A stretch of 64,000 nucleotides of DNA, taken from positions 3,529,140 to 3,593,139 of the forward strand of contig JARUPZ010000016.1 of the NCBI GenBank assembly GCA_031213475.1, in the 5' to 3' direction. Within the stretch, counting starts at the first letter, position 1. The number at the start of each line of letters is the position of its first letter. The notes below the pieces were generated by a model that was not told the DNA's origin, did not search any database, and saw only the letters and a list, made by a program, of their open reading frames with translations. The stretch is from Nereocystis luetkeana (Eukaryota > Sar > Phaeophyceae > Laminariales > Laminariaceae). This document shows, in pieces, positions 2,335 to 57,700 of this stretch. The translations under genes and the position numbers were made by a program.

Positions 2335-4847
2335 CGCAGCACCGCCGCGGTATGCCTGGCGCTCCGTGTACCGTAGGTTGCCGCTTGTTGGGGCAGCTTT
2401 TCTCGAGCATGTTTGTATATACAGCAGCGGTGTCGCGTACCAGGTATTGTAGTGGTAAAAGTACAGGTATGTTATAAATAGTGCGGCGGTGCTGGATGTG
2501 TTTGTTTTTTTATTGAGTGAAAAGATGAGTCGGAGATTGAGAAGAATCGTAATTTGTGAAGCACCAGGAGGTGTGAAAATGTTATTAAACTCCCGTGTTG
2601 ACTGCTGCTGTTGACTCCTGTTGGCTACGTACGAACTCGTAGTTATTTCCCGTTGTTTCTTGAAGAGGCGCAGAGGCTTTAGCGTACGTTAATGATGTTG
2701 GTGGTGTATGACACCAGGTACAGCGGTAGGAGCATTGCTTACGTCGACGGACTGCTTTAGATACTGCAAGACCAAGCAGCTATTTACGTGTATACCAGTA
2801 TGTCGCTGTGATCTGTGACCTGTCTGTGTCTGTGTCTGTGATGTGATCTGTCGGTGCAGTAGTCCTGATCTGGTCCTGACAACGACTCAGGACAGAAATT
2901 TCTGGCAAGCGTTCGATTTTCCCCGGATCTTTTTTTTCCAACTCACTAATAGTGTCAGGAGGCTCTTCGTGCTCCACCAATCGGACCAATTCAAAACATG
3001 GATCGAAAGCAGCGCAGCCGCGTTTCTCACCCGTTGCTGGCCTGTTTTGGGTCTGGTTTGGGGCCAGGGTTAGCTAGTCAGGGTTGGGGCTTGGGTTAGG
3101 TCTACCAAAATCCGTCGCAGGGGGTGTGTTTTCTTACGGTACGCCCGTGACTTGATTCCACCATCGGAAATGCTTCCTAGCCCTACCAACCATGAGCAAC
3201 TAACAACCCGAAAATAAAGCTTGTGTGTCGGTCTCCCGGACGTACCCCCCCCCCCCCCCCGCCCCTAACCCGTTCAACCACCGCTCGTTGACGGGCTCTT
3301 GGTTGTTGGCCTACCACCGCTCGTCAGCTCGTTGACGGAAAATGTGAATGATGTCGTGCTGTCGTTGTTAACAGCCGTTAGTAGGTGTGTATCGCCATTT
3401 TTGTCACTGCACACTTGGAGCAAAAACGCCGAAGTAGGTGCTATACGGCCCTTACATCCGGCATTAGGTGTCGTCAACTACTGTTTTACCGGTATATCAG
3501 GTGTAAAATGCGAGGCCCATTCGTAGAGCTTTTAGATAGGTAGCCACGAGCAGCGGTAGTACTCCTCCCTGACACGGCAGTGCTTTTCGCTCTCCTTGAA
3601 ACGACGACAAACCGGGGGGGGGGGGTATTGCCAAGCGCTACGAAAGGTAGAGAGAGCTGGCTGGGCAACGCGCCACCGGCTCGAACCGAGTGTTGTTTTC
3701 ATGCCAGGTACCCTGGTGCCTTGAGAGTGCTTGCTGTCGAGTTTGACGTATGAGTTTGACGTATCGCACCTTTTTCTGGTCTGTCGTCGTGTGGCACTTT
3801 TGGAGATGTTGACAGGTGTCTTGTGGTTGTTGTTGCCTTCTTTTAGGAGGGGATAGAGGAGGAGAGAGGTTCAGCAGCACATGCCGGCCTGCCTCGGCTC
3901 GCACTGGTCTCTCCACCACATCCAAGGATAACACTCTCGCTGCCGGGCCAGTGAGCAATGCGCTCATCTCCCAGTCCTTGCTTTCGTTAAGGCTTTTGTA
4001 TTTTGTATAAAGTCGGTGAATGGTCGCCGGGACGAGCGAGCAGGGCCAATGAGCGACGTGCCCATTTATCAGTCTTTCCTTTTCTGCAGGCTTTGTATCT
4101 TGTAGAAAGTCAATGATGGTCGTTGGGACCAGCGAGCAGACGGTGTACCCCGCTTCCCCCCCCCCCTCCCCCAAGTTTTTTTTTCTTAGTTTCTCTTCTT
4201 GCTGATTTTTTTGGAAGAAGTCGCGGGATTTTTGTGGGGGCCAGCTTACTTTTCGTTCGTACTCGTAGTGTTGTTGCTGCTGCGTGCATAATTTTCCCGG
4301 CGTAGGACGATTGATGGGTCGCTGGTTACGTTTTCGAGCGCTGCCGAGCACCCGAGACGATCGAGGAAGTCACCCACGCCGGGGATAAGTGACTTGAGCC
4401 AGGGGGGTCCCAGTAGAGTACTGCTGCTATATTGTAGCATGCTCCACTTCTTCGAGGTTTGCCTCGGTTTTCCATGAGGGACGTTCACGTTGTGGGTACG
4501 AGTATAGATTGTAGGGCAAGGTGTTCTGTGTGTGAAATGCGCTGCTACGCGCAAGTACCACTAAAATTGACGGCCATTAACAACTGGAATAATACCAATT
4601 GTCCCACTATCAGTGCGCTTCGTCGGGGCGTAACGCAGTCTTCGCGTGTAGTTTCCTCCGCGCCGAACACGTCCTGTTCGCCGTTCTGGGATGTAGCTCC
4701 GTTTTCCCCCAGCACGTGCACCGTACTGTGGCTGATGTACGCCAGTTACTGCCTACGATATGGACAAGAATACTTATTGATGCAGCGCCAAGAAAATGCA
4801 CTGTTTTTTGTCTGTACATAATACTGCTGTGACGTATAATCCAGTGG

Positions 4848-5060
4848 GTGCGTGTGTTCTTCACATTGCACCGTTCTTCCTACCCGTCTACATCCAACGC
4901 AACCAGTGTCCGTGCCGATTCTTCGATCCTGTGGAGAGATACAAGCTCTGTGACCTCACATATATAAACTTAAATTGTCACCAGGTATGCAGTAAGCAGA
5001 GTAGACAATGGAATGCCATGTTATCGTACTGGATACGACAGGAACGACATCACACATTCT
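4848..5060 (+). repeat. Dispersed repeat, copy 1 (second copy at 47203-47425)
   Basis: Starts with a GTGCGTGTGTTCTTCACATT-like segment and runs through ACCAGTGTCCGTGCCGATTC to TACGACAGGAACGACAT, followed by an A-rich tail. The same order of blocks recurs at 47203-47425 with roughly 75-80% identity judged by eye. The A-rich 3' side suggests a retroposed (SINE-like) element, but no pol III boxes were confirmed. Confidence 0.7.
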
Positions 5061-6349
5061 AGAAAAGAGAGAAAAATCGAAGGAAACGAACAAAACTAAT
5101 CCAAGGAAAAATAAAGAAGAGCCGTATTCCCCCCCGTAGACGTGGCAGACACTCCAGGTCAAGCAACCCCAGGAAAGATGTTCGTCTTCTCTACCCCAGG
5201 TAGCGATGCATAAAAGTTGGAGCTTGCCACGGCACTCGCCAACAGCGCACCCAACATACAGACTTGGTGCTCACCGCCCCAGGAGAGCCATTACCTTCAG
5301 CTGAGCGGAAGCCGAGTGTGACGAGGTTTGGGGTATAGGCGAGAAGGGAAGAGATCGAAGGAAGTGTGATGGTTGAGTTGTTTTGCGCGGGAGCCGGGTA
5401 GATTTTTTTTTCGAGTCCTGCCACATGAACTGGACCCATGATCGCTTGGGAGACGAGCTTTCAGTCAGACTGTGGGCGCTCAACGCATTTGGTGCCCCAG
5501 AAGGTGGGAATTGGCGGAGGCCGGCAGTATGTGTTGCAGCTATCGAAACTACTTGGGTCCGTACGGGGTTCAATCGCTCGATGTCGTTCGACGCAACGAG
5601 CTAAAACATTGGACAGTCGTGCTTGAGAGGACTTTTGTATTGCGGGAAAGATAACAAGACATGCTTCAAGGCGACAAAATAATACCAGGCACACATGGGT
5701 TTGGCGACCTCCGCCAACCGGTGAATTCCCACTACGACGATGCTCCGTTTGACACAGGTATTTGAATGGGAAACATCACCGTGTGACACGCAGTGATTTC
5801 GAAGAAACATGTAGAAAAAAAAAAACACCACCACGCGCCACAACACCGATGATGCAGTGGAATGCACGCGGTGGACTCGCTTTTGGTTATTGCATGCGGT
5901 CGAGGTTCTTGGTGCGAACTGCTACACCTTTGCTGCGGTGTGTGCACGTTTGCAGCTCCTCGTTTTCGTTTGAAAAGTCTTGCTTGTTTGCTACCAGGTA
6001 TCGCTGGGTCGGAGGGCTGCCCGCCCTTTCGTACAAGTTACGTTCAGTAGATTGAGGAGGATCCAGAAACGTAGCACAGACGCCGTAGCAAGCTTGGCTG
6101 TCACTGGACCACGAGCGTTAAAATCACAAACAACCAATAATATACGTGTAACGATGTCTAGCTGTGTTTTACACACGGGAAGCTAATATACGTACCACCG
6201 ATCACTTCTACGTATGAATACTACCCGGCAACGTAGCCATGGGGCCGATCAAGCACGCTGCAAACAATTGAAGTTCCACGTAGTGACCAGTCCGCCTTTT
6301 ACATGACTCCGTGACGTGCACAACAAACGCTCGAGTACTACCGTAAACT

Positions 6350-6460
6350 ATTGCGGGGGACCATAGTTAATAGGACCTATGGTATACATAAAAACCTATA
6401 TGTTTGAACATTTTTACTAACAATATTTGGTCCTATTATTAACTATGGTCCCCCGTAATC
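6350..6460. mobile_element. TA-flanked palindromic MITE, copy 1
   Basis: Left end TATTGCGGGGGACCATAG and right end CTATGGTCCCCCGTAAT are inverted copies, with TTAATAGGACC and GGTCCTATTA further in. The AT-rich centre is shared with the copies at 23045, 35252, 37012, 37584, 38913, 49754, 52182 and 52769. It lies about 260 bp beyond the SZT2-like stop codon. Confidence 0.85.
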
Positions 6461-6719
6461 GTGTAAAACAACAGCACAAAAGTACAGGAACCGGAAACAG
6501 AAACGTAACGTGCGCATGCGGCCCCGCATGCGCGCAATCGTCTACCCACGCCACTTGGAAAAAAACAACACGAACGACCACAGAAACAACCGCGCGCATC
6601 CATGATGCCGTCCACAACCAACGACGTCGCAACCACAAAGAGGCGTCACATCGACCATGCCCTACTTAACGCACAGGGAAACCCGTAGAAAAAAAAGCGC
6701 ACTCGTTTTTGGCATGGGC

Positions 6720-6875
6720 TTAGTCTTGTTGGTGCGGGTCCGTGGTGCGCAGAATGTCGTCCGCGCACCACGTGAGCATATCGTTCACGAGGGCGGAGAA
6801 GACGGTCCTCTCTCCTTCAGTGAGCTTAGGCGCGGCCTGTCTCTGCACGACGTCGACGTCCACCATGTTCGACTC
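6720..6875 (-). CDS. SZT2: SZT2-like exon w37, last coding exon with stop
   Basis: Acceptor after a pyrimidine-rich tract ending GCTGCAG, then 51 codons in phase 0 to a TAA stop. The peptide starts [11 protein letters not shown], contains [19 protein letters not shown] and ends PHQQD. The acidic, helix-like end resembles the C-terminal helix of the family (E-R-x-x-x-x-L-x-x-x-ML-W pattern). Phase agrees with exon w36, across a 2.4 kb intron. Confidence 0.75.
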   Translation of the reverse strand, partial: ESNMVDVDVVQRQAAPKLTEGERTVFSALVNDMLTWCADDILRTTDPHQQD

Positions 6876-9800
6876 CTGCAGCAAACGGAATGCGGGAAGA
6901 GTTGCGCGGGGGCTTATTGTCAACCCCTTTGGGGATTCAAAAGGGGAAAATGACATATATATATATATATACAAGGCGCTTCGCTCCGCGGGCGGCCTAC
7001 GCCGCCCGCTACGCTCGCTCAGGAAGGAAAAAAGTACATCAAATTATGCGAAGCGAACAGAGGTCCACGATTGAGTTTAGTTTTTTCAAGGATCGTAATT
7101 GCAAACCGGCGACTTGATAATGCCAAGAGTCCTGCCGCCATGCTTCAGGAATAAACAGCTCCGACGTCAGCTTGGATGCCACATATACGCTTCGCGTCGC
7201 GGATGTCGTACGTACGTACATACCCCAGGTAGGGCACTACTGTCTGTACTTATTTTCTTCTTTCGATATGCTCTATGTCTGTACTGTGTGTACGAAGAAA
7301 GCGCAAGCACAGCACGGCACAGCAGCAAAAACAATCAAAATTAAACCGAAAACTCGGAAAGGAAAAAAATCCCCGTCCCCTCTCGTGTAATATTTTTCTG
7401 CCTGATTGGAACACCTTACACCCGCAGCCCGGTCGAAAAGAAGAAAAGAAAAAATCGCACAGAAGAGCTTCTCTCTCAGCCTCGTACGCCGCCCGTCCCT
7501 CTCGCGACCACCTCGCTACCGATTCGGTCCGGGTAAAGCTTTTATCACTCTCTGCCACAATCAGCCCCGTCGCCCGCCTCGCGTGAAGCCCGGTGCTCAC
7601 CGTGGCCGTCGTTCGCCAGCTCGATAACGTTGGTGTTCAAACTGCACACCTCCCTCTTTCAACTTTAGCGTTGTCGCAAAAATAAGCACCGCTTGAATAT
7701 TATCTTGCCCTCCCGAACGACCTTCATAACTCGTACATACTCTACCAACAACCATATCTCGAAGCCAGACAAAGCCCGTTCATGCATCTGTCGTGTCTCG
7801 AGGCACACGCGACGCCTAGGCACGAAAGCGGCGACCGCGCTCCTTGCAACCCCGCCTCTACCCGCCAGCACCCGCTAACACCCGCGACGGTGCCGGGTCC
7901 TCCCGCGATGCCGTCTCGGAGTACACGCACGCACACGAAACGAAAGAAGAAAACAGGAAGAAAGGACCGAGAAAACAAGGAACTGCTGGAAAGGTCCGGC
8001 AAGTAATGAAATGAGGCGGTTTGGAAGTGGGAGCTCTGAGAGGCCAGGGATGCACCAACCGAGCACGCTCAGGGGTTGTGATCTAAGCATGTAGTTCTAT
8101 ATTTTAGTATTAGAGCATCAGCCACAGCAAGAAACCCGGGCTGCCGGGGTATAGGGGGGGGGCAGGGTCCAAAATACACTTAGATGATATGCGTAACACG
8201 CGCAGCATGATGTCACTCGCACTACTGCTGGGCGCTGACACTAGTACGGGGAAATACAGTAATCAAGAAGCATAGTAAAAATACTGAAATACATACCGGT
8301 AGGTTTGCGTCCAAATAACGGGTCCTGATCACTATTGAAATGGTCCCCCGTGTTAGACGGCTTGACAAGGTCGCATCGCCATGGTTCCGTCCGAATTTCC
8401 TGAGTGCCAACATACTTCATTTTTTATTAGCCAAAACCGGGACTGAACAGCGTTCCTCGAAAGGGGTAGGAGCAGCCAGCATTGCTGCGGCACAAACGGG
8501 GCCAGATTTAGACACAGAGAGGTTTCCCCCGCGTTTTCCCTGCCGTTGGCATCCTCAAAAAGACCCCTCCACAAAATCAATTCAGACGGGTTTGGTCCGT
8601 TCTACGTACTACCAGTACGTAATGGCATACAACAAGGTGTGTGCGGTCCCGTGTCCCGTGGGACGCAAGGGAGTCGCGGCCAGCTTGCCACCACGCGTTT
8701 TAGAAGGGCCATGCCGGGCGATTGTTTGGCTCTTAAGAACGGTTTGTATTATGACTGGGGGGGGGGGGGGGGGGGGTACTCATTTGCTGCTTGTCTTAGA
8801 TTATTGACCATTGACTATGCATCCCTTTCCAGACCGGGGGGGCGGCGGGAGTTTCGCAAACACACGACACGTAATCTAAATGTGCAAGTGTGGTGGGCTT
8901 AAGCTTTATTTTTACCAATCCGCCCGAGGATGTAAAAAAACCAACAAAAAATGCCTTTCAAAGGGATACCAGGTACCAGGTATGTCTGAGCAAAACCCTG
9001 CACGCGCTCAGTCGATAGCTTCCGTCGACCCATTGCCCCTCGGTTCTCCATTCGAGCTAGCCCCACTATTGATAAATGCAAGAGAGGATCTGGCGTTGCC
9101 ATACAAATAAATGTTTCAGACGCAGGTGGAGCAAGCGAGAGCGATCAAGTCGGCAAGACCATTCCCTGATCTCCCGCGATGAGCAGCGCCGAAAAAGGAC
9201 TCTCACCTACACGTCCTTCGACCGACATTTACTGCGACTACATCAGGTCATGGTCGACCACTCACCTTGTCCAATGTTACATAAAAAAACAACGAAGGGG
9301 CCTCCGACGACGCCGGTGGTGCACAAGCAGCACCGCCAACTGTCCCTACCCACGGCCCCTCGCCACCCCAATCCTCCTTGATGAACGTTGTCAAACCCCC
9401 GTCCCCATCTTGAGCGGCTGCCGCACCATCCCTGAACCCAGGTGCATCACACCTCGGTAGAGCCAGCAGCACGCGGCGTGTCGCACCACTATCACAATCG
9501 GCACGGGCGGCACTGGTGTCGCACGGCCCCTCAACGCCGATCCTGGTCGTCGCCGCCGCAGCTGGTGACTCGGCCCCGCCCGTGGGCGCGCTGGAGCTGG
9601 AGCTTACTTGCGCAGCGTCGTCACCGTCTCCGAAGACAAGAGTAAGGATGTACGGGGAGTCCACGAGGTGCTGGAACCAACCTGACCAGTCCACGCGGTG
9701 CTTGCGGTCGAGAAATTCACTCAGGCCAGGATCGGCGACGCCTAGAGAAGTTACAGTGGAAAACTCCAAAAGATGCCGGAGGTCTGACTCGCAGATGGGC

Positions 9801-12800: not shown

Positions 12801-15800
12801 CGACAGCGCCCGCTCCAGGCTTCCGGCCGTCAAGCGGAATGAGCGTGTCCCATTTTGCTGATCCCCAACGCCCTTCCTCTTGGATGGAATCTCCTCCCCA
12901 GGCGGCAGAGAATTGGTTCATGTGCGCTGGGCTCCGATGCTCGGCCTCCACAACTCCGGGGCCTTCACCTGTATCGTCGTTCCCTCTCGGCGAACCTTTG
13001 GCCGATAACTCCTTGGGGGTCAGGGGGAGCGGGGGCATTGGCAAGAGCAGGGGATAAACCGCCATGCGGTGGAGTCGGCACTGGCTAATGACACTTTGCA
13101 ACCCGTCGTGGGGCTGCAGGGCCGACTCTTTCCGGCCTAAAACTGCTCGCTCCGCGGGGGCCTGTTGCCCATCAACAGTAGCCGCTACCGCGGCAGCCGC
13201 AGCAACCGAAGCCCCCGCCGCGCGAGCAGCAGCAGCCGTCGCGCGGTAAAACGAACCAGTAGAGAACGGCGCGGAAGAGCGCTGGTTCTTCGCCTCCGTC
13301 CCCGGTACCCCCGGAACATCCAAGGTCGCGTCGTTATCTCGCGACGGCGGCAAGGGTGCAGGTGAAGCGATTTTTGTTTTCGTGAAGCCGTGTTGTCCCC
13401 CACGGACAACGACGGGTTCGGGGGCCTGCAGCGGGTTGCTGCCACCTCCTTCAGCGGAAACACTCCGTGTGTTATCCGTAGCCTTCGACATGATCGGCGG
13501 TGACATCCGCAAAAATCGAGAATTGCTGGAGGTGAACCCACGCTTCCCAGCGCTTGGGTCTTCTCGCCCCCCTCTGGTGCCAATCCCACCCCCACCTCCG
13601 TGCTGCGCCAAGGTGATACTTCCTGCAGAAACAGGCAACACCCCTGCCGCTGCAATCCCCATAGCTCCGCGGTTAATGGTTCCATCAATTTTGACCGTTG
13701 TCGAGGGCGTCCCTCTTCCCATCGTCACAGCGTCCACCTCCGCTACTGCCACACCGCTCTCCTGTTCTTGCGGAGATCTCTCCTCAACCTCGGCGGCCTT
13801 GTTCCAGCGGCACTGCGTTTGATACCCCCAAGTCCAAGCGCGCGTGTTTTCCCATCGATGCTTACACTTTGCCGCATGCTCGTCGTCCACCTCCACCAGA
13901 TGGGTCCGGTTCAAGAATGTAGCCTGAAGCGGATTGGCGAGACACGCCACTCCGTCAGCGATGCCACCGATGCGCGCAAGCGCCGTTTTACACGGCGGCT
14001 CCATCGAGGACGCTAAAGCGCGCGGGCTAACGGTGGGAGAGTTGGTCGACTTGGCCGCCGCAGCCGCTGCCGCCGCTACCACCGCTCCCGCAGTCCTCAT
14101 CGGCAACATTCCGTCAGTTGACTTGCTGACCTCTTTTCGGGCCGTGCCAACAAGATGAGACGTTCCCGCGTTGACGGCGCGAAGGTATTGAGACCAGGCG
14201 ACCTTTGAAACGTTCTTGAGCCGTAGCGCAAACGAGCGCGCTTCATTCTCGAGTTGCGCCATCGTCTTTTCTGCGGCCGATGCCTGTCTCGGGGAGAGGA
14301 GCGAAACATATCGAGACGAAGGAGTTGGAGGGGTAACAATGTCGACAATAAAATACAGAAACCAACGAGCGGGGGGAGGGTGGTAGTAACGTCAGGGCGC
14401 GGGAGAGAGAAGGGGGGACCAAATAAGCCTAATGGGACCCGTATATCGCGACCGACAACAAATTGATGCTGTAGCAGCATTTATCGCTATTTTTCGTCAG
14501 GTGATATTCCCGCGCCCCTCGCCCTATGTTGGCGAGAAAAAAACCCGACGGATGCGATATTATTAAGCGGACAGGAAGAGCGTGCAGCAGTAGGAGTATC
14601 ATCATGCTGCGCGCGTGTCGTCCGGCTTCCTACATTGCAAGTCAGCCCCCTCCTCTACCCTAGAACCCCGGGCTGGTTCGTGTAGCCGGTGCCGGCATTG
14701 TCATGAATTCTTGACATTTCTCCCTCCTGAAGGGGGCCAATACGCGAGGAAATACCTGGTGTCAAACAGGCATTTATGTTGCGAAGAACACGCATTGACC
14801 ATGGCCCCTTTTTTGAAAAATTTAGAGGAACCACACCAAACCTCGACGGTTGCACCATCCGCGACGACAGTTAAACGTGCGCATACAGCAGTTCAGAGTA
14901 TTTTACGAACCTGTCTTCCACCACCTTGCGGCGTGGCCAATCTGCGGCCGGAGTTCAAGCCGACAGGCAACGGCATGAAGATCTTGCTGCTACTGCCGCC
15001 ACCACCCCCAACCCCTCCTCTCGTTCCTCCTGCACCACCACCACCGCCGCCACCCCATGCCCCGCCCGCCTCAATACTCCAAGCTTCTGGGTCAAACCCA
15101 CCCCCCGGAATGGCGATCGTAGAGGAGGAAGCAAGCAGGTCTGCGCTGCCGATGCCGTAGCGCTTGTGAGAGATGCGACCACTCCCGAGACCGCCGGGCA
15201 ACGCTTCATCGGTCAAAGACTTTGGAGTGGCCGGTGGGCGCCCAGCAGCAGGTCGCCCTGCGACAGGCCTCATCAGGCTATCGTTGTAAGGAGGAAAGTT
15301 GACCGGCGTGTGCGGTGCGGCGGAGACGCGCGGCGGGATGCAGTGTTTAAGGTTATCTCTGTTCCGTGTGCCATGTTATTTTCGGCAACGTGTACTCGCC
15401 CTACGCAGAGGGGCAGGTTCAGGATCAGCCATCGAAAACACAAGAGACGTGCCCTAGGTTAGGAGGATAAGACGCCGAAGCGCTCTCCCGATGCGCTCAA
15501 ATGCTAATCACAACGGTGGTGTTGATGTTGGTGTTGGCGGTGGTCGTACTACGGCGCGGCGCTGTAGGCAACAGCTTTGCTTCTTTACGATATTTGATAC
15601 CCAATCCACCGATACCCCTCTATCCTCAGCCATGTTCGCTACCCAGTGAGACCGCCGCAGACCTCGCCCGACGACCAACGCACTCCATGTAGCCGCACAT
15701 TCCCCTTGGTAGACCTATGTACGCAGCACGGCGAGTCGATGTTCACCTGCTCGTGTTTATTCGTGCCTCAGAACCAGCGGGGCGTTCACACTCACTACAC

Positions 15801-18800: not shown

Positions 18801-21800
18801 CTTACAGAATGCCAGGTAGTGGCAAGAAACCAGGCAGCAAGCGGGTCGTGCTGAAGTTGCGCTCTGCTACGCGGCACGTGAAAGCGAACAAAAAACAAAA
18901 ACGGTGCGCTCTGCAGACTGAACAAAGGCCTATCAATCAGAAATATCAACGATACCGTACGCCACTGCTTAAAATTTCATGCACGAGCCAATGTAGATAC
19001 AACCCTTTCGACGTAGGAGATTGAAATAGCTACTGCCATCTGTCGAGGCTTCGTTAGGGACAAGGGTCTCGAGGATTCTGGTGTGCTTTGTTCAACAGGG
19101 GATAGTATACAAACGCACAGAAACGGTCGTGCAACACCAGCTAGGACATCTGATATCTTCTCGGAATTCGGCACAAAAGGTAAAGAAACGATTCGGCACA
19201 AAAGGCAACGGAATCGGCACAAAAGGTAGGGACAACCAAAAGAGGAGCCGAAGCCGCGTGCTGCAGCTCTACGAATGAAATCACATCTCGGCGCACGTTC
19301 GCGACTCCAAGCCGACCTGGACTAGCCTCCCGGCCCGTGCGAGCAACCAAAACGCCCACAAGGGAAAACGCAGGGCCGGCGCGATGAATATCGTCATCAC
19401 ACCGACATAACCCAACAGACGACACCGTTGGATTTGAAGCTATGGCATGATTAATCTCGACGTTTACCCATCCGAGGGAGGGTACGAATGAACCCACCGT
19501 GCCGCCAGAAAAATGCCTCACAACATGTGTAGAAAACCGCAACGCATCGCCGCTGCTTAGCTCACCTTGCCCACGTGAGAGACGACACGAAAGCTTTCCG
19601 GCACTGGTCGAAGAGCGATGGATGGAAGTTGTAGGTGGTCAGCCACTGCCGACGAGCAGACAGCGTGATTACGCAGAACATGCCGCGTTGACGGACCTAG
19701 GTTCCCAGACGAGAGAGAGAAGGGCAGGAGTGACACACACGACAACAAAGGCCAACCGATGGGAATGGTCGGCGCTGAAGAGTTGATACGCAAGTACCTG
19801 GTGGTGTTTTTTAGTGATGGGAGAATCGAGGTCGACGCGACGTCCATAGACAAAAAATTGAATCAATACCCTTGCAATATTCATCACCATGCTTGCACCA
19901 GGTAGACTACATTCAATTCAGAATCAGCCAAAAACTTTACAGGCATGCCACAGGATGGAGGGTCAAACGCGTTCCATGCAGGCTGGTTCAAGCATATCGC
20001 CCGAAAATCCTCAGGGGTCCAATGTTGACGCGGTTGGGAGAAATACCCTGAAACTTGGCACGTATGTTCTATGAGCCGCTACTGATCCGTCAACGATTGT
20101 TGTTGCTTTTTTTTCTTGCGACAGACATTTCGTTTTTATATAGAGATTTGGGTCTTACGGGATCCCAAATTTTCGGCGACAAAAAAGAAAAGGAAAACTA
20201 TCATTAGTCAATGGTTCGGCAGGGGTATATAGAACGCGTGTGCATTTTTTCAGGGCTCATCTCTGAAAAACGGCGTGGACATTTGGACCTTTGTTCCGTA
20301 AACGTGCAAACTCCGGCATCGCCTCAGTATACAATCGATTTAGGGAGTTCAATATGATTTATTCTTGATTGTATGCAGTCAGATCTTCGAGTATTTGAGT
20401 AAAAATTTGTACAAACACGCCTTGGACCACCTGGAAGCGGCTCGACCAGAAAAAAAAACGAGAATAAAAAAAAATCCTTCCGGCGGAAACGCCTCACTAT
20501 TTTTTATTGTTGACCTCTCTGATTGGTCGGGGGTGACATTTTCAGGCGGTACCGCCAGCCCAATGTCATCTTCTTCCACTGTTCATGGCGGTGAGAGTGA
20601 TACCAAGCATGCGTCAGGGGTGTTGCTATTTCATGGGGGCATTCACGGGTGACGAAATTCGGGGCGATCTGCTTGAACCATCTCTTACGATGCATCGAAA
20701 GTTGATTCATCGATATATCGCAACTGTTTACGTATACGATATTCAACTCTAGTAGCCGTATAGGATGAGCAAAGCACCCGATGGCAATGACGACACCCTA
20801 CCCCCCCCCCCAAGGCGAGGCATCTTCCGTCGTGACGACCGGACAAAACGCACCCGACCCCAACAACGTGTCCACAGCCCCTCCCCAGAAGGCCGGCAAG
20901 AGTCTGAAGCTTTGATCGAGGGGGCTACCGGTACGTACTTCATGCATCGGATCCGCGCCACAGTCACACACCTGCCGCTGCCACTGGGACAACCCCGCCT
21001 CGTTTCTTCTCCATCCGATGTCCCCTGCCGGCCCAGACCCCGACCCGGATGCGTGTGGCAGCATCGCGCGCTCGTGCATGTGGGGCGGGTCTAGCGCGAA
21101 AGAGGAGATCGGGCGATTGTGAGCTGGGTTAACACTGCTCCCTGCGCCTCCTCCACTCCCTCCTCCTCCTCCTCCTCCTCCTCCTCCTCCTCCTATTTCC
21201 CCTCGCGCTCGTCCCTCGCTGATAAAAGCCTGCTGAAGGTCATCCCTAAAGAAAATCGGACAGGGCGAGGTAAGGAGGGGCACCCCCGGGGGGATTCGGA
21301 CAAGAATAAAAAAACGATACTCGTCCTAATCAGCTGTATGCATACGAGAAAGCAGACGGCGATTCAGCGGTCTTCAATACAGGTTCGCTGCTCCCCATTC
21401 ATCATCTTCAGGGGTGATTCATCCACCAAGGCTACTGCTGTTGATACTGGTGTGCACGACGTCCATACGATTCAGCACTAGATGGCACAATCGTGAAGCA
21501 CCGTGGGACGACGCAACACAGCCACCTGGATACGCACGTCTTCCCTCCACACCTGTTACGCAGAAGCTCCACCAACCTCCACTCCCACAAAACAACATCG
21601 AGACATTGACGGTCCGATTTCGGTTTTACCGCCACGTACAACGGATACAATTACGAAGACCCATCAACGCATCCCCACCCCACCCCACCCCACTACGTGG
21701 AGCCGGCGCTTACCTGACACGCGTCTTAGGCGCCCCGTCGAACTCCAGCCCGAGCACGATTATGTACGTGCCGGGGTCTACGTCGGAGTTGGTGTTGCCG

Positions 21801-27800: not shown

Positions 27801-27821
27801 AATGTGCGGTGTAGTTGCTGC

Positions 27822-27862
<41 letters not shown>

Positions 27863-42800: not shown

Positions 42801-45800
42801 AGAAATCTACGAGCACCATCTGCCCAGCAAGATCTCGGTCATGAACGTGGGTATTTCGATTTCGATGAACTGCGGTATATCGAAAGTTCGATACTTCGGG
42901 CTCTCGTCAATGCCCAGAGGACAAAAACGCGTGTTCAATACGGTAGATACATGAACAAAAAAAACGACAACGCATCCAAAGTTTCGACATGATATCCAAA
43001 CAAAAACATGTATCGTGTGCCCTATTTATCTTTCAAACACGCACGCGAACCTTGCGGGTGCCCTCGAGAACAAAGAAACGCGCTTGATACCACACAGCAC
43101 ACAAAATGAAAACTTCGGCACTGTACGTATATTAAAAAAAAAGCGAAAAAAACATAATGTCCAACACACCAACACCTGCCAAGTACCAAGGTACCCATTT
43201 TCTCTCACTCTTCAAGCAAGCACGCACAAGCAAGCAAGCACGCACGCACGTGTACCTTCCGGGTGGTCTCGCCGATACCCGCCAAAGCGAACGTAACGTC
43301 ACCGCTGCACAGCATCCGCCCTGCGCGTAGGGCAACATAGACCACCCGAAGGAACACTTGGCGGTGGGCAAAGACGACGAGTCCCTGGTATGCTCTGGCC
43401 ATAGTACTGACTGGGCCACCCTTGGGATCATCTCCCCACCCGATTCTGGGGAGAGAGTAGGGGGTGAAGGGGAAGGGCGGGCGGGGGGGGGGGGGGGGGG
43501 GGAGGGATGGCGGGGACGGGAGTGGGGGGGGAGGAGAAGGGAAGAGGGGCAAGGGGGAAGGGAGGGGTCGGTACGGACACTCATCGTGCAGAATAAGGAG
43601 GGGAACAGGGGACATGGGGTAAGAGTGAAAAGGCGCTGTACACGATTCATCAACATCGGAAAACGCAGATCCCCAAATCATGGTCAGGACATTTTCATCG
43701 CAGATTCATCCCTGATGATACATACTTTCCGCGCGATCTAGATCAACGTTGACCGGCTCTAGATCAACACGACTCTTTTGCATATTGTTTGCTGGCTGGG
43801 CGGAGCCGTATGATCACGGCGCTGCTGAAGGAAGGCAACGTCAAGTCATTCTCTATCGATCGACCTTCCTTCCCACCACAACATCTCAAAACGGCCAAAG
43901 TATAGTGTATCTACAGTAGATCTATTGTCTACAGCAGATCGCGGTCTGTTTCATCTGTGCACGATTTCAGCTTCGGTTTCGTCGGGAGCGCACGACGACG
44001 CGGGGCTGACGAATGCCGTACAGCTCGCCAACACGCAAGATAAGCCCCCCCCCTCGTGGAAGAATGGCCATACGACTACGGCCATGCATGAAAATGAGTA
44101 CCCCCCCCCCCACCCCCCCGCGGACGAATTTCCAAGCTGGTTTTATTGACAACGCAGAGAGTGCACAAGTCGAGCGATGAGCCTAAATGAAAAACACGTC
44201 GTCGATATAGTCCCAATAATCATCTATTTTCATGGTGTGTGCCCTGTACCGCCCTTGTCCGGGGAAAATCGGGGGCGGGATGTCATCCCAGGAGGGGGGG
44301 GAGGGGGGGGGGGAGGTGTTATCTTGTGCGGGTTTTACCGCGTGTCCGCGAGTCTCCGTGTGAGAGCCGATAGCCGGAACCCTTGCCGGGGTGTTGTTTC
44401 GTCGAGATGGGCAAGGGGGCAATGGCGGGCATGGTTCCGACCACGAGAGCCAAGCCGCAGCGCTTGTTCCAAAAGCAACGCACGCACACATCGCATCACA
44501 TCACATCAACATGACAGAAAACGATCGCGCAGCACAAAGAGGATTCCGTTCGCCGTTGTAGCTACATACCCTGGTACCAGGTATGCATGTTGAAAAAAAA
44601 AAAAAACGCTATCAATCGCCCCCTCATGACCACCCCTCAGAGACACGAATGACCGAATTTATTTAGAGCAAAAACAAAAAACAGGGCTGCTCATGGGTCG
44701 TGTTCAACCTCGGGGTCAAGCCGGGTCAGGTCGGGTCGGTTCGGGTCGGGTCGGGCCGATTAACGGTGACCGGACCCGATCCGTGACAATTTGAATACCT
44801 CCAGACCCGACCCGACCCGACCCAACTAGTGAGACTTCGAAAACTTCGTTATCCGACCCGCGGGTTGACTCCATGCCCCGTGATGAGCCCTGACAAAAAT
44901 AACAGCAGAAACGGAGATGCCTCACCGTCGTGAAGGCTTGAACGCCATCGCCTGGTGGTGGCTCTGGGGGATCTGCGCCATCAAGATGCTCTTGACGTCC
45001 TGCAGCATCGCGTTGTGCGGCTCGATCGGCAGCCCGAAGTCCCCCAGCCTCACCAGAAACAGGAACAGCCCCAGCGAGTCGTCCTCCCTGCCCTGCCTGC
45101 CCCCCCCCCCCGCCCCCTTCCTCCCCACCCCCGCGGCACCCGACCTCCTCCCCGGACGCTTCCACTTCTTCCGCTTCCCCCGCTGCTGCTCCAACCGCGA
45201 GGACAGGTCGTTCTTCCAGTCCTCGAAGGCCGGTAAAAACGTCAGCAGGATTGCGCCGTCTCCCACCCTACGGGCGAACCAGCGGCCCCCTGTCGCCAAC
45301 TCGTAAGGCAGCGACCCCGAGGCTCCTACGAGAGTCGGGCGCGGTATCGGTCTCCCCGGGCGCGGGGCGGGAGGCATCGTCGACTTGTTGCTGCCTATGG
45401 GGCCGGACGATCTGGACCCGTGCGCGCCCCGGCTGGAAGGGCGATTGGACGGCGGGTCTGGTGCCGAAGCGACCTTCACCATGCTAGGTGGTGCTAAATC
45501 GGCGACCGAGATAATCCACGGGACGGACACGTTGTGGGTATCCTCGAGCACCTTCTCCAGCATGCCGTGCATCTTCCGGAGTGACCGCAGGGAAAGGGCA
45601 GGGTAGCGTAGAGCGAAGCAGGGCAGGGCAGAGCGCAAGCACGGGAGGGGTGGCGGGGGCACCGGCGCCGTGCGCGTCACAAGACAGAGGGAGGGGGGGA
45701 GGGAGGGGGGGGGAGGGAGGGAGGGAAGGGAGGGAAGGGTACAGATCACGTCAGTCTTTCTCGTGCCGTGCAAATTAAGGATCAAGGCCTCCTCGGGCAT

Positions 45801-48800: not shown

Positions 48801-51800
48801 CGGAAGACACGAAAACTATAAAAACAATTCTAAAAAAAAAATGCACCTGGTCAGATATCCAGTGTGGACCGGCGCCACCAACACCGCCGGCGCCATCCTT
48901 CACCCCGGGCTGTCGCTCGACCCGGACGTGCCCGTGCTGGGGCTCCATCAGGAGTTCCGTCCCGATCTTTCCCGGTCCCGCCTGAGAGAACACCGAAGAG
49001 AGACGGACAAAAGCCGCAGGCGTCCACAGTCGGTAAGGTTTTACGGTTCGGCCCGGCTTTCGGCACAATGGTTTGATAGTACGTACACACCAACAGCTTC
49101 ATCGATGCATGAAAATTCCGAGAATTTTCCCGATTTACAAATTATTTCCGAGATTTTTCCCACGCGGGCGGGGCGGGGTCACGGAGAAGTAGGGTTCAGG
49201 TTTAAAGTCGAGCATATGGGGATACCAGGTCTCGATCCCCTAGAGAGCACCGCCTCATTCTGCACAAGTTCAAGGTCACGCCTACATACTACTAACATTA
49301 CATTTCAACCTTTTTTTCGAAGCAGGGTCACGGTCCACATAACCCCTCGGCGTCCAAACGGCACACGGAGGAGACACAGCAGCGCGGAGGGGGGGAGGGG
49401 GGGGGGGGGGGGGGGGGGGGGCACCGGTCGCGAAGTTGCAGCTATAGCTAGCTAGCTAGCTAGCTAGCTAGCTAGCTAGCTAACTAGCATCCGCATATCA
49501 GCCCCTCTGCGGTGATGCGACGGATCAAGAGGAAGACGTATCAGTTTCGGGAGGGAAAAAGCGGGGAGCTTTCGGGCGGGGGCCGCGAAGAGGGACGGCA
49601 TCACCGCGCCACGACAATCGAGGGCAAGCGACACTAGGTACAGTAATCGCAGCACCGCTCGGCCCTCGTTTCCCCCACACGCTGCAAGTTTTCGCCTTCT
49701 TCCGGTTTCACCCCCGCCCGCTACCGACCAAGCAGTGACACGAACCACTCGCTCTTGCGGGGGATCACAGTAAACAGGACCAAACATTGTTGGAAAAAAT
49801 AGCGACATATCGATAGTTTTTTGTGAGTACCGTAGGTCCTATTTAATATATTCCCCCGTCATAGTGGCAAACAACAAGTGCTTCCATCGGGGGGTCATAG
49901 GTTCTTGACCCCCCCCCCCCCCGACCCGTCTCCAAAGGGATGCGTGGTCAATGGTCAAATGACTAAGGCAAGCAACAAATAAGTACCCCCCCCCCCCCCC
50001 CCCCCCCCCCCGACCCCCCCCCCCCGACGCTCTGCCGCGCCCCCCTTCAGTATCGCATCGCACTGGTCATTGGTTCTGACAGCCGTCGCCACCGTTTTGC
50101 GACGGGCTCGGAGGACGGCAGGTTCGAAGGAAGCAACGGTTTTCATTGCCGGAGGCGATAAAAGGATGAACAGGAAATAGTAAAAAAAAAAAAAACAGAG
50201 TCCGCCCCCGTCAAACCCCCCTTCCTCTAAACTGAAGGCCTTCCTACTGCACATACCATGGTACCTGGTATACACTATCTCGACGGCAAACCGACCTCGA
50301 ACACTCTGTACTGTAGGACCATTCGCATCGTCCGGAGCTCTGCTTCCGTTCCGCTCCCGCGCTGTGAACCACCGCTGCCGTCGCCGCCGCCGCCGCCGGC
50401 CGACCCTTCACCCCCAACCCCACCTCTGGCGCCGCTCTTCCCACCCGCTTGTTCGCCGCCCCTGCTGCTGCCCGTGCCGGCGCCTACGCCCTTCCAGCAG
50501 TCTTCCGCGGGGACGACGCCGAGCGTAATCCTGACGCCTTTCACCATGAGCGCCTCATTCTCCCGCCGTTCCACGAGAACGAAACCATCGGCGCGTCGAG
50601 AGCGCGTGAGCGAGTGTATCATTTTCTGCACGTACGTGGACCACGCGAGCGAGTCGACCCCCCCGCCGCCGCCTTCTCCTCCTCCTGCTGCTGCTGCCGT
50701 TGCTGCTGCTGCCCCTCCAGAATCACAGGGGGGGGGGGGAAACGTCGCCGAGCCCGACCCTCCGAAAGACCAGTACCAGCGGCGCCGTCGCAGGTAGGAC
50801 CCCACGTACTTCACGCGGGACGCGCCTGCGAAACGCTCGGCGTGTCCCGATGCGAGCTCTTCCAGGTCGCCGCCGCTGAAGATGGGGCAATACGCCCCCG
50901 CCCACTCCACCGGGGGGGCAGCTTCCTTCGCCGTCTTCGGCAGCATGAGCTGAAAGAAAATGTTTGTCTCCAAGCCCGACAGCCCCGCGTTCACCTTGTG
51001 CACCAAGCCTTCCTTCAGCGTGAGCGCGGCGGAGACGCTTCGCAGGGGAGGGGGAACCCCGGAGCGACTACCGTCTCCGCCACCGCCACCACTGGTGCCA
51101 CCGCCGCCGTGAGCCAAGGCAGTATGCCCTTCGCTTGCCGCGCGCATAAAAGGAATCGCGTACGGTTCGTCATCGTCGCCCGGTCCGTCCGTCCCGGCGC
51201 CTCCCTCCTCTCTTCCTCCGGCTCTTTCTTCCGCCACGTCCTCGACGGACGGGCGTTGCAGCCCCTTTCCCCGCGCCACCGCCGCTTCGCCTCCGCGCTT
51301 GCCGACCTTCGCTTTGGGGGCGGTGGCAACGAGGCCGCCGGCGCTCCAGATCTTCTGCCGGAGGTCTATCATTACGCCCGCGCGCCGGGCGGAATCCACC
51401 CCGAAGAACCCCACGTGCAGGATCGCGAGGGTAGGGGTTTTCCACTGGACCTGTGCGGCGGTATCGCGGTATCGAGGGGTCAGCACCCGTTCGAGAGGGA
51501 GCGACCATGTTTCGATTGAATTTGTTTTGACGCGCGAAGGAGGCGTGCGGCACGGATCAGGCGCGGGGGGGGGGGGGGGGGGGGAAGGGCATCAACACAG
51601 GAACAACATTGCTGTTGAGTTATCTCGCCAACAATGCAAAGGATCCATAAATAGTGGAATACTTATATACCAGGTACTCTACGAATACTTCAATGTGATC
51701 GATCCACGAATTCTTCTGACCCGGATTATTCCGTTCAAACTCCCTATGGGTAGGGTAGAGTAAATTAAGAGCAGGGGTTGACATGAGGTTTACTTTTTTC

Positions 51801-54684
51801 GGGAAATGGTTACTATTAATAGGTTTCAAAGAATGTAACATATGTACGATATCCATCGGCCTTTGAGAGCTCAGCATTCGCGATGCTTCTCTCCTTTTTT
51901 GCAGCTTTTATTAAAACCGCAACATCGAGTTTTTCGTAAGTTTTTCGAGCGAACGGCTGGGCTAATCCGATAAACACCCGCGGAAGAGGGCAGCATGAAG
52001 CACACGAGGGCTGTTCGACAGAACGGCACACGCACACAGGCACCCAAAAAACTCGCGCGCGCACACACACGCACACACGCACACACGCACACACGCACAC
52101 ACACAAACACCACCTCCCCCCCCCCTCGGCACACACATATACAGGACGGAGGTGACATTCAATGAACGCAGCAGCTTTGCACTATTACGGGGGGCCATAG
52201 TTAACAGGACCAAATATTGTTAGTAAAAATGGTTAAATATATAGGTTTTTATGTATACCATAGGTCCTGTTAACTAGGGTCCCCCGTAATAGGTACTGTA
52301 CGAGAACACACTTTCACCGTGTACCTTGCTTAGCCCTTAGCCGAGCGCTCACCTTGAGGAGGGCGAACGCGCCCCCCGGCCGGCGCCGCTCGTCTCTGTC
52401 TGCGCTCTGGGAGCCGAGCGCCGTTCCCGGCTTCCCCGAGGACGAGCCATCAAGCGACAGCACCTGCACCGAGCGGCGGTTTCATGCGGGGGGGGGTCAT
52501 GGTGACGCAATCGCTCGAGACCCGCGCCCGCCACATCCAAGGTGGGTTTTTACCCGCTATCCGGTCTGCTCCTTTCTTGTTGTTCCTATTATTTTCGCTG
52601 GAACAAGGAGGCAGAAAACAATAGTCTCCCCCTACTGTACTTACCCCCGCCGCTTGGGCTGCGAGTCATGCTCAACTACGCTACTTATATATCGTGCCAT
52701 GCTCAAAAAAAAAAATACTATGCTACTTGTTCGCTGCATAATATGCTCAATTGTTGCTACTACTTGTACTATTACGGGGGGCCATAGTAAATAGGACATA
52801 CGGTACACACAAAAACCTATATATATATATATAATCTATATATTCCCTTATTTTTACTAACAATATTTGGTCCTATTTACTATGACCCCCCGTAATACAG
52901 AAGCTCGAAGAAACGAGCATTTCTTTTTTTAGCCGTTTTTTTATACTCTTTACAAACGCCCAAATCATTGTGTCGAAAATGATTGCGAGCAGAAAATCGA
53001 AATAAGCCAAAAAAAAAAGAAAAAAAAAAGAGGGCACCTTCAGAAACAGGCCATGCCACCACCGTGTGCACCACCTCTGACAAACATCCTGCAGCAAAGT
53101 CTCTTTGCTGTGGACGCGTTCAACGCCGTCCGCCGGGGGTCCCCTCTCCTCAGCCGCTCGCGTATCAGGGGACGATACCGCCGCGCGGGCGCGGGCATCT
53201 TGAAGGCATGCGCCGAGGCCCCCAGAGCCGCGCGAATCTCGGCGGTCTGTTCCGGGTGACCTGCTGCGACCGGCTTCTCTTGGGCGTAAGGGGTGCCCCA
53301 CGTCGCCGCCGCCGCCGCCGCCGCCGCCACCGCTCCCGCTCGCTTGTGTCGCCCTCGTGGGGACCGTTGCACCCGATTGCAGCATTGCCTCGTCCGGTGT
53401 CTGACGATGGCCAGCCGGGTCGGGCGGGGGAGAGGAGGGAAGGCGGGGCGGGGGGGGGGGGGGGGGTACTCATGTCATGCATGGTCGTAGTCGTATGACC
53501 ATAGATCCCCGCACCCCTACAATGCCGGGACGGAGCACATCAGGTTTTCACCGACCACGCAGGCATTGATTGCTTGCACCGAGCAAGCGAAGCGAAACGT
53601 GAGATGTTGGGCGAGTCGCATCGTGAAGGGCGAGCTGCATGCTACAAAGAACCGCTTGTGAGAAGGGCTTGCAAAGGATGACAGCTTCGGATGAATTTAT
53701 TAGCAATCTCATCTTGCCACTTCCAGAGACGGCAATGGGTCTACAACGTAACTGCCTCGTGGATGCGGGGGGGGCGCGGGGGGGGGGGGGGGGTATAGAA
53801 TAGAATAACATTTAGAATAGCATACGCGTACGCACCTATAGATAAGAAACTGTGGTTGTTCGGGATCCGTAGGGTTGATACGTGACGTGACGCTTTCTTT
53901 CGACGGGCGGTGCGTGGGTCGGGAACAACGGGAATCCTCAAGTCTTTCTTGACCTCCTCTTCTCTTATTTCACTGCCATCCTGGAGATACGGGACACCAC
54001 GAACCTAACCAGGAAGAGGAGGGTGAAACCAACCAGCACTGACATCCCCGCGTCGGGCACCCAGCGGCCATCCATACCGCCGGGCACCCGTGAGAGACTA
54101 GTCACTAGAACCCTGGTGCGGTTGCCCGCGCGCAGGCCAGCCTCCATCAACACTCTCGAGGTGGCGTGTTGTCCGTTCCGTGTTCAGTACTCGTTCGCGG
54201 CTGCTGTGACACGTTAAATGATTTTGTTCCCTCTTAGGGACTACGGTAGTTCTCACTCTGACTATGGGGCCACATTTTCGGCTTTCGCTACCGCGCCCGT
54301 ACCCAAGGTTAGCCCACTCTTACTCTTCCGCCGCGCATTGCGGGTGAAGTAACTGTCAACGCCCGGGTCGACTTGTGTCGCCGAGTCGGTACTCTACCCA
54401 AGGCAAGCGCCTTCCACGCGGTTGGAAGTGGTCTTGTTGTCGACGTCGTCCGCAGTCAAAACAGTGCGCCCGTTCGTGCCGCGCCGTCGCCAAACAAGCG
54501 AGCGCAGAGATTACTAGCGAGGTTCGAACCCACTGCGATCATCACAATAAACGTTATGCCGCGCCACGCCGTCCCGAAAACAAAGCCCCAAACCAACGCA
54601 AAAAAAGGCGAGGTTCGGACCTGCTGCAAAGCGAAAGGCACAATCAAGCACATACGAAACGCAAGTGCTCCCTCCGCAGCGCAT

Positions 54685-54734
<50 letters not shown>

Positions 54735-57700
54735 TCGCACGCACGCACGCACGCTCGCACGCACGCAACGCCCCGCCGCAGCAACACAAACGCCAGACCG
54801 CTCCCGACCCCTGAGCAAAGCAAGCGCGGTTGTCGATATGAAGCAGCCTCCCGACAAGCGGGTATGTCGCATGTTCGGGACACCGACCCCTCCGTGGCGC
54901 CGAACAACGAAACGTCCGTCGCCTGTAGCTGAGGTCGGAGCGGTGACGATGACGCGGTCCACCTCAACCAGTACAAAGCGCGCTTCCCTCTCGATCATAG
55001 CTCTCGATTACTAGTGGCGGGGGGGGGGGGGGGTCTCGAGAACAGCTTGGGTGCGCCCGACGAACCGGCAGGCACTGCCCCAACCTCTCGCACAACGCAC
55101 AGCCCACCCCCGTTCTGGAGGACGCTATATATATATATAGCCGACAGTCCTCACTGCTCACAGGCAAGCCCGCGTGTTCGGACAGGGGGGAAAAACAAAA
55201 TCGCGGGCCGTGATCGAAAAATCGTCACAGCGCCAAGACGCCGGAGACGTCCCCTGCCTAACGCAGGCGCGTGACACGAGCGCTGCTCGCGCGTGGCGAA
55301 AAACGAATCACACTCTACATACGCGCCACTCGTCGGCGGCGATTTTGTCACGAGCACACACCTCGCTCGCCAGAAGACCTCGAAATATGACCTCCATGTA
55401 CTCCGTGTTGAAAAAGCGCAGCCACTCGGGCACGCTGATGCTCCCGAGCCAGAGATAAGGCCGGCACCGCCGCGCGTCGAGTCTCCTCCCCCTGTCGGGG
55501 TAGCGGGAGTTCCCGAGGGAGGGCGAGGGAAAATAGGGGGGGAGGGGTCAGCACGGTTTACCGAGAGGGAGCGGGGGGCAACAGGGATGGGTCGGCAGGG
55601 GCTGCCGGGGGAAGGCGCGGGGGAACAGGGGGGTAGGGGGGAGTCAACGGCATTTGGCGAGAGAGGGCGCGGGGCAATACGGGGGGGGGGGGGGGGTCAG
55701 CAGGAGTTGCCGAGGGGGGGTGGGGGAAAACAAGGGGGGGGGGGGGGGGGGTTAGTTTCCCCTGCCTCTCGCGACGAACCCGTCACGCTATTGATGGTGC
55801 ACCCGGAATGAAACACGTGGCGTGTAAGTGTTTTCCCCCATGGCGATGCTGCGCCGGTCATCAATAGGGAAAAAAAAACACCAAAGGATAACGGCAACAC
55901 GCGTAGGCAAAACCAAGTCCCGAAAGAACAGCTGATACCCTCTAGTCGGGGCTCTTGCATGTTCCCCCAAGCAAAAGGCGCGCACAGAGACTGCCGAGTG
56001 CGGGACGAACCCACAGACGGGGATCCTCAACGGAGGAACCACACAATATTTTCTTGCAATCCCATCTTGGAGTGTCCCCCCTTCCCCTACTCTGGCATGG
56101 CTCGCGTCGTCGACGCGCGCAGAAGGAAACCCCTGGGGTTGGGGTCAGAGTTGGAGTTGGAGTTGGGGTTGGAATTGGGTTTGGGGTTGAAATCGGGGTT
56201 GGGGTTGGGGTCAGGGTTGGAGTTGGAGTTGGGGTTGGAATTGGGGTTGGAATCGGGGTTGGGGTTGGGGTCAGGGTTGGAGTTGGAGTTGGGGTTGGAA
56301 TCGGGGTTGGGGTTGGGGTCAGGGTTGGAGTTGGGATTGGAGTTGGGGTTGGAGTTGGGGACAGGGTTGGAGTTGGGGTTGGGGTTGGGGCTGGGGTAGG
56401 GGCTGGGGTTGGGGTTGGAGTTGGGGCTGGAGTTGGGGTTGGGGCCAGGGTTGGAGTTGGGGTTGGGGCTGGGGTTGGAGTTGGGGTTGGGGTTCGGGTT
56501 GGAGTTGGGGCTAGGGTTGGGGTGGAGGTTGGGGGTAGTGTGCGGCAGCACATAAGGGTGGTGGTGGGTGCGCGGGTGATTGGGTCTACTATCAAGAGGG
56601 ACACGACAACCAGAATAACTGCTTGCGTTGGGGTCAGGGTGCCCGGAGTCCGTAGTTACCTGGTGTGGAGGCTTGATGGTCCGGGTGGAGACGCGGCGGG
56701 TATATTCTGCGCCATCTTCTCTATGTCCACAAGCATCATGTCCCCCTGGTGTTGGCGTGCAGACAGAGAAACCAGTGCAAGGTTAGGCTCACTGTACTAC
56801 TACTAAACACGACCAGCGAGCACGACAAAAAGCGGGAGCTAGCGAGCAACGCCGTGCTACCGACCGACCGACCGACCGACCAGCTCGTTTTCGTACCAAA
56901 CCAACGTCTCCTCTCAAGCTAATGTGTGGCGGCGCGCCGGTATAGAAAAAACCACAAGCTATACTAGAGAGAACCAGGTGGGGGAGAAGCGGGCGGGCGG
57001 GGGGTAGGCAGCAACCGGCAGAGCATAGGGGTGCACCGAAATCAGCTAAACACCCATGCGAACGAGTTATCGAGGCTGGCGGATGAAATACGAAACAACA
57101 CCCACTCCAGCCAAAAAAAAAACTCATACCAACGACTTCTCGCAGCTGCTGGATGAAACCTACTGTAAACGAACAAAGAAAAACCAATACGCGTAGTCTA
57201 CATGAAACTCCACTGCCGTAGCGTTATGTACAGAAGCAAAAACAAAAGTCAAACCTGTTCCAGGCTCGTGAGGAACTCCTTGAGGCGTCGAGCTCCCCCA
57301 TCCCCCCCGGGTTCATCCCCGCCTCTTTCAGAAGACAGCTTCGACTTGAGGTCAACCAGAAAATGACGGGGGGCCAGAACGTCAACGCTGACCTCCGCTT
57401 TGCCTGGCAGCGACAAGTTCTGGTGGTCGCTCTGTCCGAGCAAACGTCAGATCGGCAGCGGACGGGGCTTGAGACGGGACGGAGCGCTCTCATGTTATCA
57501 CATCAACCCATCGATATTTGTCTACCGTGGTTGCTTGTCCTTAATTCAACCATCGCGACATGATCTACTCTGCGAGGTCCCAATAAATCTGGAGAAGAAC
57601 CCATCAGGATTCTGTTTTTTCTTAAATCCACGTAGCTCAAGCGAATGGTACACCCCGAGGACAATAAAAAATAGAGAAATCCGCTTAGGATCACCCCTAG

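Follow-up and report, generated by a model that had tools for sequence, protein, structure and literature searches.

Excision of cut-and-paste transposons can leave short fragments of the element ends behind, and such footprints are described for Tc1/mariner elements as well as for Stowaway miniature inverted-repeat transposable elements (MITEs) (PMC1925063, PMC3660474). The standard length given for Tc1/mariner footprints is 2-4 bp (PMC7913693); footprints of Stowaway and Osmar5 are said to retain 1-4 bp of the ends, and the element can insert anew next to an earlier footprint (PMC1925063). In Sleeping Beauty and mariner, the transposase cleaves one strand three bases within the element, and the resulting 3-nt 3' overhangs are joined into footprints (PMC7827188). 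Here we report on the octamer ACCAGGTA (TACCTGGT on the other strand) in the window C16:3529140-3593139, i.e., the whole analysed stretch of 64,000 nucleotides, taken from a genome of 465,085,209 bases in 1,987 contigs. We are highly confident that the octamer is the excision footprint of a MITE of Stowaway/mariner type, which is the best explanation we have for it. The motif is best read as a scar rather than as an element, and the type of event is already known, its scale being what is unusual.

Abundance and structure of the octamer

The window contains 22 copies of ACCAGGTA; in 100 dinucleotide shuffles the mean was 1.16, and no shuffle had more than 4. Markov models of orders 0-4 expect 1.3-2.8 copies; orders 5 and 6 expect 6.8 and 16.2 per window, these orders already holding most of the word. 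Genome-wide the octamer was counted 211,755 times (106,048 + 105,707), and the reversed control word 8,881 times (4,391 + 4,490). An unselected set of 264 kb was composed of the window, 100 kb from C2 and 100 kb from C5; among octamers with at least 15 occurrences in this set, TACCAGGT and TACCTGGT ranked 1 and 2 by order-4 Markov deviation. The initial annotation had counted about 21 copies by eye, all 21 of which were recovered on one strand or the other, together with a 22nd at 1435. The strong over-representation it described holds in the window and in the whole genome, where the frequency lies far above that of the control, and the back-to-back palindromes it noted are present in a perfect 14-bp form at 35125 and 37036. 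In one open-access library, as far as the listed titles go, no paper with the octamer was found, and a 7-mer part of the unit turned up in two unrelated papers; scanning the window for Rfam families and for tRNAs gave no match.

The usual unit is TA-CCWGG-TA. In the 264 kb, TACCAGGTA makes up 119 of the 151 octamers, with 2.4 expected (order 3), and the window octamers are divided between TACCWGGTA (13 of 22) and C-type CACCAGGTA (9 of 22). On the + strand the central base of the unit is A or T equally often (59 vs 60). The unit is preceded by a purine in 121 of the 151 cases, and a pyrimidine follows the octamer in 128. The target context is R-TA-Y, with ATAT, GTAT and ATAC enriched 2.2-2.3x over all TA sites (100 single units with full flanks), and the flanks are AT-richer, the GC content being 0.47 in the 200 bp around T-type sites versus 0.55 for the window. 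Arrays of two or three units account for 7 of 111, where 1.05 are expected with random choice of TA (2,000 simulations, largest 6). Since the units stack, the palindromes are accounted for. Doubles of other kinds are a direct one at 8967 and two variants, at 44567 and at 50254. Several octamer sites overlap unverified open reading frames (ORFs) in the window. The sites, and the two MITE copies which host some of them, are as follows.

1435-1443, - strand: C-type CACCAGGTA, probably a decayed scar
2438-2446, + strand: scar TA-CCAGG-TA, exact nonamer
2712-2720, + strand: C-type CACCAGGTA, probably a decayed scar
4979-4987, + strand: C-type CACCAGGTA, probably a decayed scar
5992-6000, + strand: scar TA-CCAGG-TA, exact nonamer
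8967-8982, + strand: direct double scar TA-CCAGG-TA-CCAGG-TA, from the sequence
14753-14761, - strand: C-type CACCAGGTA, probably a decayed scar
19795-19803, - strand: C-type CACCAGGTA, scar or chance
19896-19904, + strand: C-type CACCAGGTA, scar or chance
35124-35139, no strand: palindrome CACCAGGTACCTGGTG of two back-to-back C-type octamers, probably a double scar whose outer TAs have both changed
35252-35366, + strand: host MITE copy (TA, then TTACGGG...) with a 7-bp insert, from the nine-copy alignment
35299-35307, - strand: scar TA-CCTGG-TA in that MITE copy, inserted bases 35299-35305; the other window MITE copies lack an insert at this TA, and one C5 sample copy has the same insert
35611-35619, - strand: scar TA-CCTGG-TA, exact nonamer
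37013-37135, + strand: host MITE copy with a 14-bp insert, from the alignment
37035-37050, no strand: double scar in palindromic form, TA-CCAGG-TA-CCTGG-TA, at the MITE's hot TA, with 37035-37048 as the inserted bases, from the alignment; 30 empty matches in a 326-kb sample
38465-38473, - strand: scar TA-CCTGG-TA, exact nonamer
39401-39409, + strand: scar TA-CCAGG-TA, exact nonamer
44567-44583, no strand: variant double scar TA-CCCTGG-TA-CCAGG-TA, from the sequence
50254-50270, no strand: variant double scar TA-CCATGG-TA-CCTGG-TA, from the sequence
51668-51676, + strand: scar TA-CCAGG-TA, exact nonamer
56657-56665, - strand: C-type CACCAGGTA, scar or chance

Insertion at TA and the hot site of a resident MITE

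The MITE family resident in the window (beginning TA, then TTACGGGGGACC...) is about 110-130 bp long, and nine copies were aligned.

Resident MITE copies, by alignment: 6340-6465, 23040-23166, 35252-35366, 37013-37135, 37585-37693, 38913-39021, 49747-49868, 52183-52291, 52770-52897

One of these holds the extra 7 bp and another the extra 14 bp listed above, and the remaining seven are without those inserts. More than 6,700 copies in the genome retain the core of the MITE around one TA, the hot site, among them 6,228 exact empty copies and 500 with an insert of 1-31 bp. The inserts form a graded series of terminal bases between TAs: the 100 hot-site inserts listed include CCTGGTA (36), CCAGGTA (11), CCCTGGTA (7), CCAGTA (3), CCGGTA (3), CCAGGGTA (2) and three doubles, as well as single remnants, e.g., GGTA, CCATA, CCTA and TA. 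By our own count about 80 of the 100 fit a series of CC..GG end joining; the rest comprise 7 of CTCCGGAGTA or CTCGGAGTA, 3 derived from the ends of the MITE itself and some 10 other small changes. As inserts may be inherited by MITE amplification (CCTGG 36 vs CCAGG 11), the 500 are not a count of independent events.

Empty paralogues, with the flanks joined, were found in the 326-kb sample for 16 of 152 motif sites, compared with 15 of 912 other TA-N5-TA words (Fisher P 6e-7). In our own reading 11 of the 16 are good long alignments and 5 are weak; four of them lie in one MITE family and two others have a common insert, so the independent number is lower than 16. Array growth by one unit was also seen between paralogues (TACCAGGTA vs TACCAGGTACCGGTA). 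Insertions of 3-40 bp between repeats, 521 in total, were collected independently of the motif. Of these, 27 are seven bp long, and 11 of the 27 have a duplicated TA. The top TA-flanked word among the 521 is CCWGG (9 + one dimer), followed by single A (8) and TTAA (7), the latter being what the resident MITE would itself leave as a scar. The proposal that the motif is added to DNA is thus confirmed by the empty paralogues and by empty MITE sites at the same TA. The two MITE differences are insertions and not ancestral, given the seven empty copies in the alignment and the empty copies genome-wide, and TA, which had appeared to be preferred, is indeed the target, flanking the insert on both sides and being duplicated on insertion.

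Some other observations concern the same MITE. A second scar family occurs at the hot TA, with CTCCGGAGTA (4) and CTCGGAGTA (3) among the 100 inserts listed (e.g., C2:1545930, C2:8628591, C3:1739698); the CTCGGAGTA copies, all three in C2 and at even spacing, may go back to a single event that was duplicated. The likely own scar of the resident MITE, TATTAATA, occurs at 12x expectation. One scan of viral contigs for the end of this MITE gave 0 matches.

The probable source element and rival explanations

An excess of TACCATGGTA (6 sites, 15x expectation) suggested that an element with the ends CCA..TGG was the source. Hot-site copies in which CCA is followed by a base other than G occur in 28 places, and 15 of these were fetched. 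In two of them, L087 and L088, a 79-bp element that starts with CCACTC and ends with GACTGG lies between two TAs, at the same hot TA as the scars. The other 13 were scars, rearranged MITE copies or ambiguous. The element belongs to a family in the genome, since its end pattern TACCACTCYGWCCCR has 989 exact matches (484 + 505) versus 6 (2 + 4) for the control. Three end pairs among the 100 places listed are elements of 79, 79 and 81 bp, each flanked by TA at either end, and two degenerate copies of 68 and 59 bp were found in the C5 sample. In the terminal inverted repeats 18-22 of 26 terminal bases match in the five elements, and 15 and 8 in the two degenerate copies; all five two-ended elements lie between TAs, whereas empty MITE sites have one TA only. 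Elements of 79-81 bp are too short for a transposase gene and occur in many copies, although the 989 exact ends include some of a longer form. The element end CCACTCTGTCCCG resembles CTCCCTCCGTCCC, the end of plant Stowaway. The window is without a recognisable copy (best 16 of 26 bases). A search of the 326-kb sample with the known ends gave 4 loci with at least 19 of 26 bases, and five shuffled controls gave 0, 3, 1, 1 and 0 at 17 or more; a TA-anchored search for 14-bp ends and a split-alignment search of the sample had missed the source element.

We propose that a non-autonomous element of 79-81 bp, with the end 5'-CCACTCTGTCCCGAAATATA and its inverted copy, would insert at TA and duplicate it. 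Later excision would leave terminal bases, CCA on the left and TGG on the right, which joined with a one-base A/T overlap would give CCAGG or CCTGG. Full retention would result in CCATGG and trimming in CCGG, CCAG or less, with CCCTGG as another rarer product. As the scar keeps a TA, the site could be hit again, yielding tandem and palindromic doubles. The stagger of 3 nt would presumably be made by a mariner-type transposase and the break repaired by end joining, and an autonomous partner probably exists or existed. We infer that the scars come from the 79-bp family, and not from another one with CCA..TGG ends.

Several points weigh against this proposal. Of 22 hot-site copies fetched to look for the element (7 of 48 places and 15 of 28), only 2 contained it, and excision was not caught directly, as a locus whose true alleles carry the element on one side and a CCWGG scar on the other was not encountered. 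Scaling the 264-kb share (119 of 151) to the genome gives about 167,000 scars by our own arithmetic from a small sample, so that exact ends are more than 100 times rarer than scars (989 vs about 167,000), a ratio which is an upper estimate, since only exact ends were counted. A scar of 5 bp also exceeds the Tc1/mariner standard given above, though Stowaway and Osmar5, as noted, retain 1-4 bp of the ends. The transposase profile PF13358 gave 0 matches, and so did PF01359, whose control was silent too. TACCTAGGTA is absent, a weak argument with 0.2 expected. Finally, CACCAGGTA outnumbers its mirror TACCAGGTG, 23 vs 9 in 264 kb and 26 vs 9 in 326 kb (P 0.006), an excess that symmetric decay does not predict; the bias is 9 to 0 inside the window, and outside it the difference (17 vs 9) does not reach significance (P 0.17).

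The same numerical imbalance between scars and exact ends would favour a micro-element, akin to the undescribed one of the initial annotation, in which CCWGG or CCAGGTACCTGG itself inserts at TA and a longer element never existed, and so would the uniformity of the insert, exact (CCWGGTA)n making up 50 of the 100 hot-site inserts listed. The graded partial inserts and CCATGG, however, fit joined ends of a longer element, and an element with exactly such ends was found at the same TA. A duplicated TA together with terminal bases is what excision of the 79-81 bp MITE present in the genome would leave, and the motif matches this scar; we regard the micro-element as very unlikely. A more serious contender, though still an unlikely one, is that the scars are footprints of the longer relative, by the same mechanism. 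It shares the first 13 bases and was the source of 4 of the 5 single ends fetched, while both elements caught at the hot TA are of the 79-bp form. The longer element, seen in L096, L097, L098 and L099, has the end CCACTCTGTCCCG and, some 40 bases from it, a stretch rich in GC that is like GAGGCGCGCGAGCGCGAAGCGCG, and it is possibly a lead to the autonomous partner.

A palindromic, non-random and common motif could also be a functional site under selection, e.g., for a transcription factor or chromatin protein. Its insertion into repeats with TA duplication, its position inside MITE copies and a decay mainly by transitions without sign of constraint make this exceedingly improbable. The chance of a sequencing or assembly artefact, which so uniform a short insert in one assembly might suggest, we consider negligible: the same inserts are common to paralogues about 7-18% apart, so the scars are inherited, and decayed forms exist. 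One-mismatch variants are above expectation and mostly transitions; about 57 excess variants against 117 intact copies, calculated by hand, suggest a mean divergence of about 5%.

Other candidates were discarded. The C-type octamers as element ends (TACCTGGTG...CACCAGGTA) have no visible common extension among the 26 copies listed, and the pair 1435-2720 spans a long open reading frame; an intron-like element (CCTG/GTG...CACCAG/GTA) was dropped on the same grounds. For the 5-nt CCWGG as the element's own end, hot-site copies with CCWGG followed by a base other than T were considered (48 places); all 7 fetched were scar variants, and the 79-bp element at the hot TA begins with CCAC. In the candidate C1_82721:1987-2110 the inverted repeat runs past the TAs.

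Scale, neighbouring features and known systems

Our reading of the octamer as an excision footprint leads to a tentative proposal, to which we give somewhat less than an even chance: one small MITE family made on the order of 100,000 heritable excisions, almost uniformly repaired to CCWGG, and the scars are their near-complete fossil record. If so, scars of excision could come to dominate the make-up of a genome, there would be a very consistent joining route with one-base overlap, and excision would be frequent in cells contributing to the germ line. Ages, target preference, site reuse and joining outcomes would be available for something like 100,000 events, and the moves per surviving copy of a cut-and-paste element would become measurable. 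Studies of transposon excision usually deal with tens of events, most of them untidy (in a rice comparison 8 of 94 were perfect; PMC4423477), whereas here a single scar word is countable in whatever sequence is at hand. Judged by the titles listed in one open-access library, no footprint survey of this number and uniformity was noticed. The case also warns against taking a palindromic word for a binding site just because it is over-represented.

The window has some further features. A minisatellite at 61111-61680 (period 85, 6.5 copies) includes several TACAGTA words, and a tandem array of TGGGGTTGGGGT at 56134-56534 (period 12, 33 copies) lies within overlapping long ORFs. An ORF of 530 aa on the reverse strand (26696-28288) has 14 relatives, the best with 87% identity over 59% of the query. 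Pfam analysis of 20 window ORF entries (two pairs overlapping) gave a single match, TFIIA, in this ORF, at 26.4 bits and below the cut-off of 36.2.

Among known systems, the Mariner-Tc1 elements of the brown alga Ectocarpus, with 17 families and 11,912 mostly non-autonomous copies, are similar by description only; the main text on them uses neither the word footprint nor the word excision (PMC12477816). The likeness to Stowaway MITEs and rice Osmar is closer, comprising short non-autonomous elements, a TA target that is duplicated, footprints of end fragments and reinsertion by an old footprint (PMC1925063, PMC3660474). The present elements differ in their length of 79-81 bp, their ends CCA..TGG and a host that is apparently not a plant, as well as in the scars far exceeding exact ends and in the lack of a transposase match (PF13358). 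With Sleeping Beauty and Mos1 they would share the TA, the 3-nt 3' overhangs and the end joining into a small footprint, as outlined in PMC7827188, the 3-nt stagger being presumed here. The difference from these two lies in the usual scar, which is 5 bp and which we read as 3 + 3 bases joined with a one-base overlap.

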